Below, in pieces: positions 23,199 through 39,325 of a DNA stretch of 64,000 bases (positions are counted from its first letter, which is position 1; the number at the start of each line of letters is the position of its first letter). The position numbers were made by a program, and so were the translations under genes. Source of the DNA: Hyphomicrobiales bacterium. GTDB taxonomy: Bacteria; Pseudomonadota; Alphaproteobacteria; Rhizobiales; Beijerinckiaceae. The notes beneath the pieces are model-generated. The model was not told the origin of the DNA and did no database searches. It saw nothing but the letters and a program-made list of their open reading frames with translations. Where the stretch lies: positions 62,001 to 126,000 of the forward strand of contig UBZM01000025.1 in assembly GCA_900470095.1 (NCBI GenBank). The letters run 5' to 3'.

Positions 23199-23229
23199 GG
23201 CTACGGGGCTTCCTTCCCGTGGACTTACG

Positions 23230-26167: not shown

Positions 26168-26241
26168 TGGGGGATCGTCTAACGGTAGGACCCCAGACTC
26201 TGACTCTGGTTGTCTAGGTTCGAATCCTAGTCCCCCAGCCA
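26168..26241 (+). tRNA. tRNA-Gln(CTG)
   Basis: A full cloverleaf is readable: acceptor TGGGGGA/TCCCCCA, anticodon stem CCAGA/TCTGG around loop CTCTGAC (anticodon CTG), T-arm CTAGG-TTCGAAT-CCTAG, and encoded GCCA at the 3' end. Its 3' end (from 26231) is the left copy of a 15-bp direct repeat and is the likely integration target of the island that follows. Confidence 0.95.
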
Positions 26242-26245
26242 CTTC
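26231..26245 (+). repeat. Putative attL of the tRNA-Gln island
   Basis: TCCCCCAGCCACTTC at the 3' end of tRNA-Gln recurs exactly at 30315-30329. A 15-bp direct repeat with one copy completing a tRNA 3' end is the usual signature of site-specific integration. Confidence 0.75.
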
Positions 26246-26409
26246 CTTAGGTGGTTGACTTTAAAGAGAAATTCAAAATCGTGGTAACACCTTGTGGTAG
26301 CACCTCAAGGTGACGCGACAGCCTGTCGCGGCCTGCCCTTCCGCCGCGATCGAATGCGCGTTAAGCCCCTCGCTGGGGAAAGCGATACGGCGGGGCAAAC
26401 CGATTCTCG

Positions 26410-26763
26410 ATGGCGAAGCGTGCGAAAAGGACAGTCCGGTATTTCACGCTGGATGATGACGTTGGCGTAACACCCTCTCGCTTAAAGCGCATGTCGGCCA
26501 AACGTCAGCTAGAATACCTAACGTATTGGTTTGGGCAGTATTACGAAGACCCCGCTCATCAGACGTCCTATAATACGCGTGAAGGCGGATATCTCTGGAA
26601 TCATGGCGGTCCTTACGATGCCGCTGAAGAACTGTATTCTGAATTTGCGGGCATTGTCTGGTTCAGAAAGCCGCTGATGACGTTCAGGATGAAAACGGCA
26701 TCTATGAGTGGGCTGCCACGTCCCGCCATCCCGATCAGCGGGAAGCCTATGATGAGGCGATGA
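26410..26763 (+). CDS. Hypothetical protein, N-terminal part of a probably frameshifted gene
   Basis: The frame starting MAKRAKRTVRYFTLDDDVGVTPSRLKRMSAKRQLEYLTYWFGQYYEDPAHQTSYNTREGGYLWNHGGPYDAAEELYSEFAG is convincing up to about 26660. After that the reading becomes atypical (KPLMTFRMKTASMSGLPRP). The frame used by the next gene instead reads KAADDVQDENGIYEWAATSRHPDQREAYDEA directly into that gene. One indel around 26655-26672 would join the two into a single protein of about 290 residues. The function is unknown; the aromatic-rich YWFGQYYEDP and 'EELYSEFAG' patterns occur in other hypothetical proteins of this order. This may be a true pseudogene or a sequencing error. Confidence 0.6.
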   Translation: MAKRAKRTVRYFTLDDDVGVTPSRLKRMSAKRQLEYLTYWFGQYYEDPAHQTSYNTREGGYLWNHGGPYDAAEELYSEFAGIVWFRKPLMTFRMKTASMSGLPRPAIPISGKPMMRR

Positions 26764-27281
26764 GTGAGGCGTTCGACGGAGATCGGCCGGCACCCCGCAC
26801 GCCTGATGAGACGCTGGCAGATGTCCAGCAACTGCTAGCCAGCGGCACCTTGCCGACCTTCGGCTCAGCCGATGAGCTCGCCCAACGGCGCGAGATTTTG
26901 GAACGCCTTGCGGCTGTGGAGGCAGAGCTTGCAAAGCTCAAGCCGGTGCATGGCGGTATCGGCCACAACAATCCCCCGGCCGACGAACTGGATGACGATG
27001 AAGGCGTGCTCGAACAGAGCCGCGAGGCCACCGCTGTCATCCAAGCCGAACTCAGCAAGCAGCAACCGGATGTCGCCAAGGTTGCTGAATCGGCTTCCCC
27101 GCTTTCGAGCGCCGCGAAATTCCTCGCGAAAAAAGCCGCAGAGAAAGGCTTGGAGGAAGTCGCGAAACGGGTTTGGGAATCGCCGGTAGCTCAGAGCGCA
27201 ATTGTGGCAGTCGGCGCCGCGATCTACGCCGCTTACGACAAAATCGTTGACTGGCTCTTCTCCATTACGCTGCCGTTCTGA
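26760..27281 (+). CDS. Hypothetical protein with GIGHNNPP motif and C-terminal membrane segment
   Basis: A 173-residue product as read from the ATG at 26760. It contains a predicted coiled coil (AQRREILERLAAVEAELAKL), then HGGIGHNNPPADEL, a short motif frequent in rhizobial hypothetical proteins, an acidic linker, a helical stretch rich in Ala and Lys (AAKFLAKKAAEKGLEEVAKRVWESP), and a C-terminal hydrophobic segment (SAIVAVGAAIYAAYDKIVDWLFSITLPF) that may span or lie on the membrane. The frame is open upstream and appears to continue the protein that starts at 26410, so this is probably the C-terminal part of a frameshifted gene. Function unknown. Confidence 0.6.
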   Translation: MSEAFDGDRPAPRTPDETLADVQQLLASGTLPTFGSADELAQRREILERLAAVEAELAKLKPVHGGIGHNNPPADELDDDEGVLEQSREATAVIQAELSKQQPDVAKVAESASPLSSAAKFLAKKAAEKGLEEVAKRVWESPVAQSAIVAVGAAIYAAYDKIVDWLFSITLPF

Positions 27282-27287
27282 AGCAGA

Positions 27288-27336
27288 AAAGCCCGCCGAT
27301 CTGCGCCGGTTGGCTTCATGTCGCAAATCACCCTGG
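27288..27336 (+). repeat. 49-bp imperfect direct repeat, copy A
   Basis: Starts AAAGCCCGCCGATCTGC and matches the copy at 28265-28313 at 41 of 49 positions without indels. The first part can fold (GCCCGCC...GGC), so it may act as a terminator-like unit. It begins seven bases after the stop of the upstream gene. The remaining bases 27337-27593 hold no supported gene and shift sharply to high A+T from about 27420. Confidence 0.6.
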
Positions 27337-27593
27337 CTCGACCTGATGACGCGCATCTTGAATGGCGAAAAGGATGGCAGGGCCTTTGTGTGTCGCTATG
27401 GTGAGGGTGGGATAGAGTAACGTTTGAACTCATTTCTGCGTAGATTTAGATGATATTCGCACGACGTCTCCAGATGGAATAATAACCGATCGTCCGTCAA
27501 CTTGAAATGCCGTATGGTGCGACAATATCATTGTAATTATAGTTTCATTATAAGTTATTTCGTAATTTGATTTATCTTTAGTGGCGATCTCTT

Positions 27594-27980
27594 TTAGGCT
27601 ATTTTGTCTTTTTTAACGCTAATGCCATGAAATACGTCAAGTAAAAAAACAAAAATTATGCTAAAAGTCATTACAGCAAATGGTTGATTGTGCGTGAATC
27701 GGCCTTCTGTTCGAATCTGCTTTGTATAATCAATAATGAAATACAATGTAACAAAAAACATCAAAAGAGTTGCTGTATTCGCTATCTCAGATATAATTCC
27801 GTCTTTTCTTCCTGCTTTAAAGTGCTCGTATCCGGGAATTCCAAACCAGACGACAATACTCAAAAGTAGGGCTGCGGCCCATAAGAGTCTTCCTCGGCCG
27901 GGTGATTGAATAAGGTTTATATAGTCTGTAATAAAATGAAGAAGCGTAAAAGATGCAGCTAGCAGCGATATTCCGATCAA
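27594..27980 (-). CDS. Hypothetical AT-rich membrane protein, C-terminal part of a broken gene
   Basis: 128 residues with three hydrophobic segments (MIGISLLAASFTLLHFITDYINL, LLWAAALLLSIVVWFGIPGY, TATLLMFFVTLYFIIDY) and a fourth near the C terminus (VMTFSIIFVFLLDVFHG). The frame is open upstream and reads TLIWTIEYTDIIKITLIGIS, which would join smoothly to the FDR of the small gene at 27983-28174 after a one-base shift near 28025. Codon use is far more AT-rich than in the surrounding genes, a sign of foreign origin. No family recognised. The intact product would be a four- or five-helix membrane protein of about 190-200 residues. Confidence 0.55.
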   Translation of the reverse strand: MIGISLLAASFTLLHFITDYINLIQSPGRGRLLWAAALLLSIVVWFGIPGYEHFKAGRKDGIISEIANTATLLMFFVTLYFIIDYTKQIRTEGRFTHNQPFAVMTFSIIFVFLLDVFHGISVKKDKIA

Positions 27981-27982
27981 AG

Positions 27983-28174
27983 TTATCTTAATAATATCTG
28001 TATATTCAATAGTCCATATAAGGGTCTATCAAAAACGGCGAGGTATCCGGATATAAATATTATTGCGATGGTCGCGCCAAATGCTGAGAGGCCGGCTGAT
28101 ATCGCAAGGAAATTTTTAGTGATGAAGTCGATCGCTCTTACCATGAGTGCATTGTCGGACACGTCACGCCCCAT
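27983..28174 (-). CDS. Hypothetical membrane protein, N-terminal part of a broken gene
   Basis: 63 residues: MGRDVSDNALMVRAIDFITKNFLAISAGLSAFGATIAIIFISGYLAVFDR, with one clear membrane helix, followed by an atypical tail and stop. A one-base shift near 28025 would fuse it to the membrane protein at 27594-27980. An internal ATG at 28144 (MVRAIDF) is an alternative start. Read together, the two parts form one AT-rich multi-helix membrane protein lying between the 49-bp repeats. Confidence 0.5.
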   Translation of the reverse strand: MGRDVSDNALMVRAIDFITKNFLAISAGLSAFGATIAIIFISGYLAVFDRPLYGLLNIQILLR

Positions 28175-28264
28175 GTCGAGGGATTGGCGTCATAACTCAC
28201 AGGAAGGTCGGGCCAGATGCCAGCCATGTCCTGAAAAACTACGCACTGCAAACTTTGAACGATT

Positions 28265-28313
28265 AAAGCCCGCCGATCTGCACCGGCGAGCCTCGTGTCG
28301 TAAATCGCCCTGG
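28265..28313 (+). repeat. 49-bp imperfect direct repeat, copy B
   Basis: Matches copy A (27288-27336) at 41 of 49 positions. It abuts the 3' end of the small minus-strand gene at 28316. The pair brackets the AT-rich membrane gene in a unit of about 980 bases. Confidence 0.6.
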
Positions 28314-28315
28314 GC

Positions 28316-28573
28316 TTAGGCGACGTGCTGCGTCGCCGCGCTGATCCTGATGCGGGGCTTGGGAAGCTGGACGCCGAGGGATTCCAAGCGCTCAACGATC
28401 ATTTCGGTGAGCGCGAGAACGTGGAGGTTCGCATCTTCGGGCGTGATCGAATGAATCTCATCGGCGATAGCGTGGGACATCGCCTCGCGAGCAACCTCGC
28501 GCCTGATCATCATCCTCTCGCTCTTACTGGCGATCCGAACGATTGCTTCGCGGAGGGCAGGATTCAGGCTCAT
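28316..28573 (-). CDS. Hypothetical protein, second gene of a small overlapping pair
   Basis: An 85-residue, mainly helical, soluble protein (MSLNPALREAIVRIASKSERMMIRREVAREAMSHAIADEIHSITPEDANLHVLALTEMIVERLESLGVQL). No family recognised. The ATG at 28573 overlaps the stop of the upstream gene as TGATG, so the two are translationally coupled; a GTG at 28576 is directly before it. Base composition is like the host chromosome rather than the AT-rich parts of the island. Confidence 0.55.
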   Translation of the reverse strand: MSLNPALREAIVRIASKSERMMIRREVAREAMSHAIADEIHSITPEDANLHVLALTEMIVERLESLGVQLPKPRIRISAATQHVA

Positions 28574-28875
28574 CACGCGGCCTCCCTATGGGCGGCCTTG
28601 TAGGTAATGAAGCCTTCCCTGACGCGCCTCAGCTTCGCGACAAGGCCCTCGAACTCCTGAATTGCGAGGTCCAGTTCAGGAACGGGTTCCGGGTCGTTGC
28701 TGAGGATGCCGTTGACCATCTCGGTAATGACATCGTCCAAGCTGTAGAACTCGAAGCCGGACAGGTAGAGATAGCCGACGCTGTCGCCGTCACCGTTCGC
28801 CGTCGTCTTGAGATAGGCAGCGAACAGTTCCTTGTCGGTAGTCGTTTCCGGCTCGGCGGCAGTAGTGGTAGACAT
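28573..28875 (-). CDS. Hypothetical acidic protein, first gene of a small overlapping pair
   Basis: A 100-residue acidic protein (MSTTTAAEPETTTDKELFAAYLKTTANGDGDSVGYLYLSGFEFYSLDDVITEMVNG...) ending in a basic helix (LVAKLRRVREGFITYKAAHREAA). The ATG at 28875 follows an AAAGG ribosome site; the frame stays open to 29016, but the added part looks non-coding. It is coupled to the 85-residue gene downstream. The acidic/basic pairing and overlap resemble small two-component modules such as toxin-antitoxin pairs, but no toxin motif is visible. Confidence 0.5.
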   Translation of the reverse strand: MSTTTAAEPETTTDKELFAAYLKTTANGDGDSVGYLYLSGFEFYSLDDVITEMVNGILSNDPEPVPELDLAIQEFEGLVAKLRRVREGFITYKAAHREAA

Positions 28876-29459
28876 AGGCGTGCATGCCTTTCGAGGCTGT
28901 GTGATGGCAGGTGGAACGACGCTGCACCAAACCGGGTGCGAGGCGACGCATCTCGACAGGGCGGCCGTCGCCTGACCGGGAAACGTGGGCATAGCCGGCG
29001 CCGTGAAGTAGCGCATCTGTTGTCAAGAAGGTGCGAGGCTGCCCCGCGTTAGTCCACTCGTTGACGCGGTTATGGGCTAGCCGATAGCCGCGGTGATCCT
29101 TTGCGGCCTCTTATCTGCCGTTGCGTCACGATAGATCTTGCAAGGAGGGGGGCGTTTCAGCGATCAGGCGTGTGGCCTGAAGAGCAGCGGGGCGCGAAGC
29201 GCCGTGTGAGCGTTGACCGGAACGCCAGAAGCAGTTGGCAACGTGCCGAACAGCTCAGAGATTGCGGGATCGGAAGGGGGGGGCAGGACTTTCCCTCCGA
29301 TCCAAAACCAAGAGAATTATTTACGCTGCCAACTAACTCGCGGAACACAACTCAGCCCACGCCATACTTAACTTGGCGTGAGTCTCATGGGGTTGAATCG
29401 GGTGGCAACTGGGAATATGAAAATAATCCTACACCTATAGGGTTAAGGTCAGATGCCAG
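28876..29459. other. Gene-free stretch within the island
   Basis: About 580 bases without a convincing gene. Open frames on both strands here lack ribosome sites and have atypical composition. It presumably contains the promoter of the overlapping minus-strand pair (right at its left end) and the 3' flank of the FRG gene. A G run (GGAAGGGGGGGG-like) occurs near 29270-29283. Confidence 0.5.
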
Positions 29460-30305
29460 TTACGCCCCGTTCTGGTAGCGACGAACAATGAAATCAGACG
29501 CTTTGTCGATCTCGGGGAAAAGTGTGCTGGCGTGAATTCCAAGCACCTCCAGTTCTTTCCGAATTTCACCTTTGGCATCCGATCGTATAGTAAGACGGTG
29601 TATCAATAAGTCGTCGTCCTTTTTTACTCTGACAAGCTTTCTCCCATAAATCATAAAAGCACCATATTGAGCAATAATCCTGCGGTTACTCATCTTTGGT
29701 TTTACATAGACGGGGTCGTTCAAGTCAGATTTGTCAATATTCGGTTCAAAATGAGGGTTTTCAATCTTGATGAACCAAGAGAGCCGTCTAATGGCGTCGC
29801 TTTTATTGAATTCTAATTTTGGTAATTTAAATGCAGAGGCTATATCCGATTTTTCTTCTGATGTTAGATTCGCAATATTTGATAGACAGCTAACAAGATC
29901 GCTATCATAGTACCTTTGCCTGCTTTCGGGAACCGAAAAGCCCTGAACTTTTCCGTCTTGCTCGGTTTTGTCTGCAATATGTTTCTCTGTGGCGAAATAT
30001 AGAGCTACTAGTGGATTTGTTGTGACATCCAATAATCTAGTCGGAAGGTCAAAGTGCTGCATTCTTACTAGACGATCAAACATTGTATTATCGTCACGAA
30101 ATTCTTGCGGATGGAGAGAGACAAGGTCGCGGACAATTTTCTTTTCGTGGTCGTATACGCCAACATCTTTGCGAAAAATCTTAGGTTCTGTCGGCCATTT
30201 CCAGTATGCTTGACCTCGAAAAGCGATGGGTCTTTTGCCATTAATTTTCCAATTAATTACGCTTTCCACGAATTGGGCAACTGACTTAATGTCATTATTT
30301 CCCAT
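29460..30305 (-). CDS. FRG domain-containing protein
   Basis: A 281-residue soluble protein with an FRG domain (named after its Phe-Arg-Gly motif). The motif is at residues 29-31 (PIAFRGQAYWKWPTEPKIFR), followed by the second conserved block RMQHFDLPTRLLDVTTNPLVALYFA at about 81-105. The C-terminal part (PKMSNRRIIAQYGAFMIYGRKLV...) carries the usual 'R-I-x-x-Q-x-G-x-F' segment. FRG proteins are common in phages and accessory islands, and their biochemical role is unsettled. The gene is very AT-rich compared with the chromosome. The ATG at 30305 has a strong ribosome site (GGGGGAGG) that extends into the right att repeat; an ATG at 30326 inside the repeat is a possible alternative start. Confidence 0.8.
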   Translation of the reverse strand: MGNNDIKSVAQFVESVINWKINGKRPIAFRGQAYWKWPTEPKIFRKDVGVYDHEKKIVRDLVSLHPQEFRDDNTMFDRLVRMQHFDLPTRLLDVTTNPLVALYFATEKHIADKTEQDGKVQGFSVPESRQRYYDSDLVSCLSNIANLTSEEKSDIASAFKLPKLEFNKSDAIRRLSWFIKIENPHFEPNIDKSDLNDPVYVKPKMSNRRIIAQYGAFMIYGRKLVRVKKDDDLLIHRLTIRSDAKGEIRKELEVLGIHASTLFPEIDKASDFIVRRYQNGA

Positions 30306-30314
30306 GTATTTTCC

Positions 30315-30329
30315 TCCCCCAGCCACTTC
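30315..30329 (+). repeat. Putative attR of the tRNA-Gln island
   Basis: Exact second copy of TCCCCCAGCCACTTC. Its complement supplies most of the ribosome-binding purine run of the FRG gene. The sequences diverge immediately on both sides of the repeat. Confidence 0.7.
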
Positions 30330-30753
30330 AGCTTGACAAGCTGATTATGAGTACGAATCGTCTAGAGCTCAGATTCCACTGATAGAGCGTAGTTCGGAAG
30401 CAAATCGATCGCGATCTTGTGCGCCTTCATCGTCACCTCGCCATAGTTCTCGCCGGCATCAGCGCCTTTACCCCTAGGTCCATGAAGCTGGCTGCTTCAA
30501 CAGGCCGCTTTTTCGGTGGCTTCTCTCGAAGAAATCAAGAACTTAGCGAATTGGCCGCGGCTCCTCGCAATAGGGTTGCATCCTGCCGGGGCACGCATTC
30601 ATCAGGTTCGTCAGGCGCACGCAACGGCTGGCAATACCTGAAGTGCTCGCATTCACGCGCAGCGGCGCTTGATCTCGGCGCCGACACCGTTCTTCGCGCG
30701 CCGCCCCCGACAGGAGACTAGCGTCGGGGCGCCACACAGCGCTATCAACGGCC
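30330..30753. other. Stretch without an intact gene between island and HNH gene
   Basis: About 420 bases. On the minus strand, 30435-30370 reads MKAHKIAIDLLPNYALSVESEL-stop, with an open frame upstream (KGADAGENYGEVT) to about 30474. This looks like the remnant C terminus of a lost gene. Bases 30540-30750 show normal GC content but no supported gene; they should hold the promoter of the HNH gene. Confidence 0.4.
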
Positions 30754-31656
30754 ATGGGGTTTGGTGTCTTCATTCATCGGTACGATTCGATCTATACCGA
30801 CAAGCCGGCTGAGAAATATCAGTTCCCGCGGCAATATCTTGGTCGCGTTCAAGCCTGCGTCGGTGATTGGATCGTCTATTACGAGCCGCGCAAGGTGCTC
30901 AATACGCGCGGGTACTTTGCTCTTGCCAAAGTCCAGCAGATCATTCCCGACCCGGACGCACCCGCGATGTTCATCGCGGTCATCGAGCCAGGCAGCTATC
31001 TCGACCTAGCCAATCCAGTCCCCTTCGTTGACGAGAGTGGTGTCATTGAACGTGGCGTTCTAAATGACCAAGCTCGGATATCGGGGCGAACACAAGCCGC
31101 AGTGCGACCGATCTCGCCCGCCGACTTCAACCGTATTCTCGCCCTCGGCCTCGATGAGGCTGAGCCACTCCTGCCGCGAAGCGATAGCCTGAACGCTGCT
31201 GCCGGTGGGCTTGCGGAAGAGCAAGCTCCCTTTGTCTTTGATCAAGCCCGCGAGCGGTTGACGATCGCGCTCTCACGGATCGTGCGCGATCGAGTATTTC
31301 GCCGAACGGTGCTGCGGGCCTATGGTGAGCGCTGTGCGATCACTGGACTCAGGTTGATCAATGGCGGCGGTCGTGCCGAGGTCGCTGCCGCCCATATTCG
31401 CCCCGTGGAGGCGAACGGGCCGGACATCGTCAGCAATGGGCTCGCGCTGTCGGGAACGGCGCATTGGATGTTCGATCGCGGGTTGATCAGCCTGTCCGAT
31501 GACCTGGACATTCTGGTCTCACGGCATGCGAACGACGTTGAAGGCATCCGGGCCTTCGTGAACCGAAGCGGCCGCGCGTTTGCTCCCACCCGGCCGGCCG
31601 AACGTCCGCATCCTCATTTCCTCAATTGGCACCGCGAGACCTGCTTCAAGCAGTGA
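30754..31656 (+). CDS. HNH endonuclease with N-terminal PUA/EVE-like domain
   Basis: A 300-residue protein. The C-terminal half is an HNH nuclease of the HNH_2 type: RRTVLRAYGERCAITGLRLINGGGRAEVAAAHIRPVEANGPDIVSNGLALSGTAHWMFDRGLISLSDD, with the AAHIRP His, the central Asn and the HWMFD His. The N-terminal part (GVFIHRYDSIYTDKPAEKYQFPRQYLGRVQACVGDWIVYYEPRK...GYFALAKVQQIIPDP) resembles PUA-superfamily (EVE/SRA-like) modules that read modified bases. Such fusions are known as type IV-like restriction enzymes; that reading is inference. It has normal GC content and lies just outside the island, without a methylase beside it, which fits modification-dependent restriction. Confidence 0.75.
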   Translation: MGFGVFIHRYDSIYTDKPAEKYQFPRQYLGRVQACVGDWIVYYEPRKVLNTRGYFALAKVQQIIPDPDAPAMFIAVIEPGSYLDLANPVPFVDESGVIERGVLNDQARISGRTQAAVRPISPADFNRILALGLDEAEPLLPRSDSLNAAAGGLAEEQAPFVFDQARERLTIALSRIVRDRVFRRTVLRAYGERCAITGLRLINGGGRAEVAAAHIRPVEANGPDIVSNGLALSGTAHWMFDRGLISLSDDLDILVSRHANDVEGIRAFVNRSGRAFAPTRPAERPHPHFLNWHRETCFKQ

Positions 31657-37864: not shown

Positions 37865-39325
37865 ATGACGATCACGGTCATCAGGAATGCGGATGTCGTC
37901 GTGGCCTGGGATGCCCAGGCTGCCGGTCACGTCTATCTCTACGGCGCAGACGTCGCCTTCGAGGATGGCAAGATCCTTTTCGTCGGCGAGCGCTATGACG
38001 GTCCTGCGGACGAGACCGTGGACGGGCAGGGGCGGATGGTCATGCCCGGCCTCGTCAATATTCACTCGCACCCATCGAGTGAGCCTCTCAATAAGGGCTT
38101 CCTGGATGAGCTCGGCTCGCCGGCACTCTACAATTCCTCGCTCTACGAGTTCATGCCGATCCTGCGCCCGGATGCCGAGGCGGTGCCGGATTGCGTGCGC
38201 GTCGCCTATTCCGAGCTGCTGCTCTCCGGCGTGACGACGGTTGCCGATCTGTCGGTGCCGCATCCGGACTGGCTAGACCTCGCGGCGCAGAGCGGCATGC
38301 GCGTCTGCCTTGCCCCGATGTTCCGTTCGGCCCGCTGGCATACGCGCAATGGCTATGTCGTCGAATACGAGTGGGACGAGAAGGCCGGCGCCGATGCCAT
38401 GGCGCAGGCCTTCGAGGTTATCGCCAAGGCCGAGGCTCACCCCTCGGGCCGCTTGTTCGGCATGGTATGCCCCGCCCAGATCGACACCTGCAGCGAGGGG
38501 CTGATCAAGGAAAGCTACGCCGAGGCCGGCCGACGTGGGCTGCGCTGGCAGATCCATGCGGCGCAGTCGACGGTCGAGTTCCATGAGATCACGCGCCGTC
38601 ATGGCGTCTCGCCGATCCAGTGGCTCGAGAAGCTCGACGTGCTCGGCTCGACGAGCATCGTCGGTCACGCCATCTTCCTCGACGACTACCCGCGCAACGC
38701 CTGGCACAGCCGCCGCGATCTCGATCTCCTGGCTGAGACCGGCACGACGGTGGCTCATTGTCCGACCGTGTTCATGCGGCGGGGCATCGCCTTGCGTGAT
38801 TTCGGGCGCTATCGGCGCGCCGGCGTGAATATCGGCCTGGGGACGGACACCTATCCCCACAACATGCTCGAGGAAATGCGCAACGCGGCCTATGTCGCGC
38901 GCCTGATGGCGGAGAGCCCGCGCACACTCAGCACGACCGACCTGTTCGAGGCGGCGACGGTCGCCGGTGCTCGTGCGCTGGGACGCAGCGATATCGGCCG
39001 GCTTGCGGTGGACTGCAAGGCGGACCTCGTGCTCGTCGATCTCACCCATCCCATGATGCAGCCGCGGCGTGATCCCGTTCGCAGCCTGATCTACGCAGCG
39101 GCCGAGCGCGCGGTCGATCGTGTCTATGTCGATGGCCGTCTTGTCGTCAGCGGCGGCGAGGTTCTCACCCTCGATTATCCGGCGGCCGCCGGGCGCCTGC
39201 ATGAAGCGCAGAAGCGGACTGAAGCGGCTGCTCCCAGGAATGACTGGGCCGGCCGCCCGGTGACGGATTACTCGCCCCTGACCTTTCCCGAAGCCGGGCA
39301 GCGGGCTTCCGGGGCCCGCTCATGA
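37865..39325 (+). CDS. Amidohydrolase family protein (TrzA/AtzA/chlorohydrolase-like)
   Basis: A 486-residue metal-dependent hydrolase of the amidohydrolase subfamily 1 (AtzA/TrzF, guanine-deaminase-like) type. Motifs: [21 protein letters not shown] (first metal site, HSH), [17 protein letters not shown] (metal His), [21 protein letters not shown] and [18 protein letters not shown] (catalytic Asp). The C terminus ([23 protein letters not shown]) closes the beta domain. It probably deaminates or dechlorinates/hydrolyses an N-heterocycle or amidine. The ATG at 37865 ([10 protein letters not shown]) was chosen over 37802 by family fit. Its end overlaps the next gene by four bases (ATGA). Confidence 0.88.

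Follow-up and report, generated by a model that had tools for sequence, protein, structure and literature searches.

A probable truncated remnant of a tRNA-Gln island with one candidate defence gene in a Hyphomicrobiales genome

The tRNA-Gln(CTG) locus and its main genes

We analyzed 64,000 nucleotides of a Hyphomicrobiales genome (assembly GCA_900470095.1, contig UBZM01000025.1, positions 62,001 to 126,000; here called the window), in particular the DNA behind a tRNA-Gln(CTG) gene, which we interpret as the probable remnant of an integrated island. The tRNA gene, located with ARAGORN at 26168-26241 on the plus strand, encodes its CCA and is the putative integration target. The window lies on a 241-kb contig (C34) of G000, its own genome in a comparison across the genus; 67 genomes were searched, and all match the tRNA region.

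An earlier note, made from the letters of the window alone, had described a small integrase-less island behind this tRNA, with an exact 15-bp repeat completing the tRNA 3′ end. The repeat is indeed present: the 15-mer TCCCCCAGCCACTTC occurs exactly at 26231-26245 and at 30315-30329 and at no other exact site, and three further places match it when up to 3 mismatches are allowed (2, 3, and 3 mismatches). The mixed, partly AT-rich composition that had been described was also observed (GC content of 35% at 27500-27999 versus 65 to 71% in the left flank). Across the window, 19 of 8,286 overlapping 30-bp anchors (0.23%) had an exact direct repeat of at least 15 bp in the next 5 kb. We also surveyed tRNA-end repeats in rows with at least 4 kb of downstream sequence (one of them, L113, being a partial tRNA copy). 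Of 38 rows, two were the window itself; among the other 36, the longest repeat was 7 to 10 bp in 35 and 17 bp in one, an island of genome G053, compared with 15 bp in the window. Since this survey reached 20 kb downstream at most, far ends such as that of genome G078, at 23.6 kb, were missed. We concluded that the 15-bp repeat is unusual, yet not beyond chance.

Between the two copies, the intact gene product that could be named is a 281-aa FRG-domain protein (29460-30305, minus strand; Pfam FRG, E value of 9.5e-19). It matches the PADLOC candidate profile PDC-S15 over its full length (E value of 4e-108) and has the FRG motif; its relatives are 38 to 66% identical, and the invariant block is kept in the five relatives that were aligned. 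Among the 297 genomes searched in the order, 6 have a match at an E value of ≤1e-20, its own included. With tblastn, 356 plasmid records matched, none of them reaching 60% identity, as did 8 phage records. No solved relative was found by sequence at an E value of ≤1, and no close relative of the gene was confirmed among the genome contigs. In PMC9503650, Frg is assigned to the ART superfamily and an NADase role is suggested. Hence, the gene is a candidate defence gene whose product, judged by its family, would probably act as an NAD+-using antiviral effector if expressed.

Two further genes can be named, and both are incomplete. Behind the tRNA lies a truncated or frame-broken HEPN/RES-type gene (26410-26763, plus strand), recognized through PF18870 (E value of 5.8e-4, below the cut-off) and positions 35 to 94 of the 340 in phrog_17908. 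Relatives of this 117-residue open reading frame (ORF) match only about residues 12 to 85, and the 10 plasmid matches listed, out of 25, end at residue 79 to 85. The second is the remnant of a phage portal gene with in-frame stops (28925-29209, minus strand), which corresponds to residues 47 to 143 of 410 (tblastn, 51.5% identity, E value of 6e-21) and was recognized through a match in Sinorhizobium meliloti. No integrase, capsid, or GTA-family protein was matched in the window at an E value of ≤1e-5. The statement that the segment carries only unknown genes therefore needs some correction, given the FRG, HEPN/RES-type, and portal pieces.

An identity break and paired arm-type sites at the left end

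Only two close relatives of the window were found, G073 and G062, with about 94% identity in the flanks. In the 110 bases upstream of the tRNA, the window is 97% identical to G062 and 95% identical to G073; in the 100 bases downstream, identity is 72% and 65%, respectively. The three close strains thus diverge where the tRNA gene ends, a pattern that different insertions there would produce. The sequence behind the tRNA (the trailer, 26242-26340, plus strand) has its best-scoring counterpart in the distant genome G078, with a score of 120 (none of 300 shuffles scored above 52) and an identity of 81%, compared with 79% upstream. The next trailers by score were those of tRNA-Gln(TTG) in G051 (108) and of G007 (104; 83% of aligned columns). 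The G062 trailer, for its part, is nearest to that of G064 (score of 120 versus 60 in shuffles; 82%).

G078 carries an integrase-bearing island at tRNA-Gln(CTG) (contig C23, 56590-80218; L119 and L204), with arm repeats at its near and far ends. An exact 21-bp copy of the tRNA end, the distal attachment (att) repeat, lies 23.6 kb further downstream; beside it begins the gene for a 607-aa tyrosine recombinase (Pfam match over the cut-off; PHROG integrase, 1.5e-33), which reads inwards. Three 13-bp-spaced repeats of the form GTGGTAACACC adjoin the recombinase gene, and two more follow the tRNA. Related island ends occur at tRNA-Gln(TTG) of G051, on two of its contigs (L106 on C37 and L224 on C34): two repeats follow the tRNA on one contig, and on the other, three repeats lie beside a copy of the tRNA-Gln(TTG) end and a recombinase gene that has one internal stop and is 65% identical to that of G078.

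Using an arm-site matrix trained on ten sites from G078 and G051, we detected a single strong pair in the window. The first site, CGTGGTAACACCT (26280-26292, plus strand; 21.3 bits), starts 39 nucleotides (nt) after the last CCA base; the second, TGTGGTAGCACCT (26293-26305, plus strand; 17.2 bits), follows it by 13 bp and thus starts 52 nt after the CCA. Together they score 38.5 bits, versus at most 14.8 bits for the best 13-spaced pair across 60 first-order Markov sequences of 64 kb. Both the offset of 39 nt and the spacing of 13 bp are those of G078 and of G051 tRNA-Gln(TTG). We scored the 47 distinct trailers that follow a complete or partial end of tRNA-Gln(CTG): those of the window and G078 scored 38, those of G062 and G064 scored about 13 with an equal offset, and none of the other 43 exceeded 4.9. 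Of these top four, only G078 had been used to train the matrix. The arm repeats that had been proposed at 26281 and 26294 were therefore correctly recognized, since the matrix finds the pair with equal offset and spacing and far above random expectation. No further strong arm site was found within the insert in the matrix scan.

The identity break at the tRNA and the trailer scores led us to read 26242-26340 as an element-borne P′ arm. On these sequence comparisons, we conclude that a foreign insert begins at the 3′ end of tRNA-Gln(CTG) and that its left end is attL. We had considered that the trailer might be a mere native terminator, an idea that rested on similar trailers before ordinary-looking genes and on those that follow a second tRNA-end copy in G065, G077, and G044. 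It was dropped given the identity break, the arm repeats, and the int end (the recombinase-bearing end) of the G078 island.

The right border, the relatives, and the missing recombinase

The far end is less clear. The second copy of the 15-mer, at 30315-30329 (plus strand), is a possible attR core, with a chance rate of 0.23% per anchor. It overlaps the likely Shine-Dalgarno sequence of the FRG gene (GGGGGAGG, minus strand; FRG ATG at 30305), and the FRG relative in G192 (66% identical) likewise has GGGGGAG ahead of its candidate start. We give nearly equal odds to this copy being a surviving half of attR and to its being an accidental match in the region of the FRG ribosome-binding site. The earlier note predicted an empty site that joins the tRNA straight to base 30330; neither G073 nor G062 shows one, and for this reason the right border is unproven. 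Homology to G073 resumes at window position 30691, with 115 bases of G073 between the last base aligned past the tRNA and this restart, and homology to G062 resumes at 30654, after about 6.5 kb of mostly other cargo in G062. On the sequence, we leave the border in the zone between 30329 and 30690.

Within this zone, a single insert may extend to about 30505, where a trailer of the G073 type would resume, with the 15-mer at 30315 internal and accidental; we judge the chance of this to be somewhat short of even. This alternative varies only the right border and is compatible with a truncated remnant. The G073 trailer and window positions 30505-30604 are each other's best match among about 50 trailers (score of 75; maximum of 300 shuffles, 63), the local score was attained by 2 of 500 shuffles, and with a 57-base G073 query, the tile of the 30505 region tops the window (25 versus 24 for the next). 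However, the full 115-bp G073 spacer scores higher elsewhere in the window (33 at 23201 and 26 at 38201, versus 25 at 30401). Because of these better-scoring places, the homology near 30505 is weak, and so is the border that it suggests. To the right of the insert lies an HNH-endonuclease gene (30754-31656), relatives of which, with 70 to 74% DNA identity, occupy other positions in several genomes of the genus, so that this gene may be mobile too.

We searched the cargo behind the same tRNA in four relatives, picked for window-like tRNA flanks and visible cargo; the result describes these four and is not a genus-wide count. Between its att copies, G078 carries HipA, Zorya type I genes A to D, and a type I restriction set. 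The 6.5-kb cargo of G062 (L053, 6586-12757) includes a DpnI-like protein, PDC-M36A, a type IIG enzyme split in two ORFs, and a C-terminal resolvase fragment. G064 carries a TIR protein, and G008 carries a DUF2971 protein (PDC-S31) behind a trailer without paired sites. No match to PF00589 was found on the tRNA contig of G062 or of G008, and in G064 the nearest lies about 156 kb away on that contig. Cargo without a recombinase nearby, in the window as in G062, G064, and G008, could reflect a recombination hotspot that follows a native trailer, where cargo is exchanged by homologous recombination with no integrase involved; the authors of PMC10250203 consider such exchange for Pseudomonas core hotspots. 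Related trailers without visible cargo would also fit. We nevertheless regard this explanation as unlikely: identity drops just where the tRNA ends, and counterparts of the paired arm repeats are present at the recombinase-bearing end in G078 and in G051.

Islands with a recombinase are found elsewhere in the genus. In G053, the same tRNA is followed directly by the gene for a 652-aa recombinase, part of a 9-kb island (L115, 1661-10703) with the 17-bp repeat mentioned above. The label DUF6538 was obtained for this recombinase, and the others carry it by relatedness. In 8 of the 67 genomes (G053, G071, G044, G058, G024, G046, G055, and G065), the first 1.5 kb or so behind the tRNA contain a relative of the G053 recombinase; G004 has one next to a partial copy of the tRNA, and G078 has one at the distal end of its island. 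The window's own contig, by contrast, has no tyrosine-recombinase match: a PF00589 search from 88 kb to the left to 153 kb to the right, covering all 241 kb, gave no match, in agreement with the earlier description of the island as integrase-less. All seven PF00589 matches in G000 are on other contigs, and a search of G000 with the G053 and G078 recombinases gave no relative at an E value of ≤1e-5. A P arm (three 13-bp-spaced sites by the distal att) was sought near both 30315 and 30505 and not found; the best triple was negative in 29900-30330 and in 30100-30520, and the best single site reached 8.6 bits. When the inner right ends of the window insert and of the G078 island were aligned, no shared stretch exceeded 10 bases.

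The suggestion that the element depends on an integrase in trans is not supported by these searches: the P arm was not found near either candidate right end, and its own genome gave no relative of either of the two recombinases tested at an E value of ≤1e-5. A true small satellite spanning 26231-30329, bounded by the exact repeat and moved in trans, could draw on the rarity of that repeat by chance and on the intact P′ arm; it is quite improbable given that no P-arm repeats were found near 30315 or 30505 and no related helper recombinase at an E value of ≤1e-5 in its own genome (although seven other tyrosine recombinases are present there), given the FRG ribosome-binding site inside the supposed border, beyond which the promoter would fall, and the lack of a matching empty site in G073 and G062. 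We read the element as a truncated relative of the islands described above that still have their recombinase.

A probable remnant of a tRNA-Gln island and its place among known systems

Taken together, the segment is probably a truncated, immobile remnant of a tRNA-Gln tyrosine-recombinase island with one intact candidate defence gene, that for the FRG protein. Sequence comparison shows that an element of an island family specific for the tRNA-Gln 3′ end inserted at this tRNA, restored its end, and kept the P′ arm with the two arm-type repeats beside it. Afterwards, the element would have lost its right end, recombinase gene and P arm included, and its interior would have decayed, in an order that we can only suggest; the truncated HEPN/RES-type gene and the portal-gene fragment persist as traces in the sequence. 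The remainder, with its intact candidate gene of the FRG kind, would then have become fixed in the chromosome. Speculatively, the int end may have been lost through action of the recombinase at a secondary site, for example, leaving half an attR at 30315. The identity break, the truncated genes, and PDC-S15 are all consistent with the earlier proposal of a decayed insertion at the tRNA 3′ end with candidate defence cargo.

Several observations weigh against this interpretation. The G007 trailer is nearly as near to that of the window as the G078 trailer is (score of 104; 83% versus 81% of aligned columns), and it has no second arm site and no visible cargo behind it. Trailers that are alike but lack paired sites occur in G014, G052, G003, G045, and G007, where the genes behind look ordinary from a reading of the ORFs; by the same kind of reading, the genes behind the G051 tRNA-Gln(TTG) on its contig look metabolic. 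Unrelated trailers attain 60 to 77% gapped identity in an identical comparison, so that the values of 72% and 65% mean little and it is the break that constitutes evidence. Neither close relative has an empty site bordered by 26245 and 30330, the right end has not been located, and the 15-mer may be of chance origin. Lastly, the defence function of the FRG protein is predicted from its sequence and family.

The rest of the insert consists of small ORFs and a repeat. A 173-aa ORF (26760-27281, plus strand) has no Pfam match above the cut-off and no PADLOC, plasmid, or PHROG match. An AT-rich stretch (27594-28174, minus strand; GC content of 35%) holds two small membrane-protein-like ORFs from the ORF list, 27594-27980 and 27983-28174, with no Pfam match above the cut-off; they are possibly one broken gene. 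On the minus strand, an 86-aa ORF (28316-28576) has relatives elsewhere in G012, G018, and G068 (56 to 59% identity over 77 to 85 residues), found among the loci collected for comparison, and a 100-aa ORF from the ORF list (28573-28875) has no PHROG match. A hairpin-like repeat piece of about 60 bp (28265-28324, plus strand; second copy at 27288-27336) is clustered behind the tRNA in G000 and G008 (C19 15930, 16722, and 17260), occurs singly behind the same tRNA in G062, and is also found near the second tRNA-end copy in G077. A 151-bp query around the piece at 28265 matches in 16 of the 67 genomes, at one to four places each. An integron-like attC was considered for this piece and dropped, given these matches and because no attC consensus was seen in it, although no search for one was made.

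Among known systems, the nearest is the tyrosine-recombinase tRNA island of G078, which shares with the window the tRNA-Gln(CTG) target, the offset and spacing of the arm repeats, and defence-type cargo. In contrast to the window, it has a recombinase and a P arm; beyond the tRNA end, the att site, and the arm repeats, the two have only short DNA matches at chance level and no shared cargo. Like the E. coli defence islands and the Pseudomonas aeruginosa cDHS, as described in PMC10121019 and PMC10250203, the tRNA-Gln site is one locus with changing defence cargo and copies without mobility genes. It differs from them in lying directly behind a tRNA and in the evidence of recombinase origin, though few loci were inspected here. 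In a term search, "Gln" was absent from the main text of PMC11476347. Small elements made up of integrase, portal, protease, and capsid genes, such as that on S. meliloti pSymB (CP090106.1), contain a portal protein related to the fragment in the window (51.5% over 97 residues); the window gave no integrase, capsid, or GTA-family match at the threshold stated above, and its portal fragment has stops. Finally, the window protein resembles the FRG-domain proteins (PADLOC PDC-S15; Frg of the ART superfamily in PMC9503650) in its full-length match and invariant block, a likeness seen by comparing sequences. The element thus belongs, on present evidence, to a known kind, the tRNA-borne islands that have decayed; it carries candidate defence cargo, has an unusually clear attL, and is not a satellite mobilized in trans.

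The remnant illustrates how an island at a tRNA can become immobile and still retain its defence-type cargo. Its arm-type sites, through their motif, offset, and spacing, let integrase-less remnants be recognized without an integrase or a clean repeat, and the tRNA-Gln site is a place for seeking defence systems in this genus. Three species (those of the window, G062, and G064) would each retain defence-type genes next to a P′ arm that restores the tRNA end; we tentatively propose, as a possibility we hold to be rather doubtful, that the int end has been shed repeatedly at this site, perhaps under selection, as a way of domesticating defence cargo. If so, loss of the int end would lock defence cargo in at tRNA-Gln.

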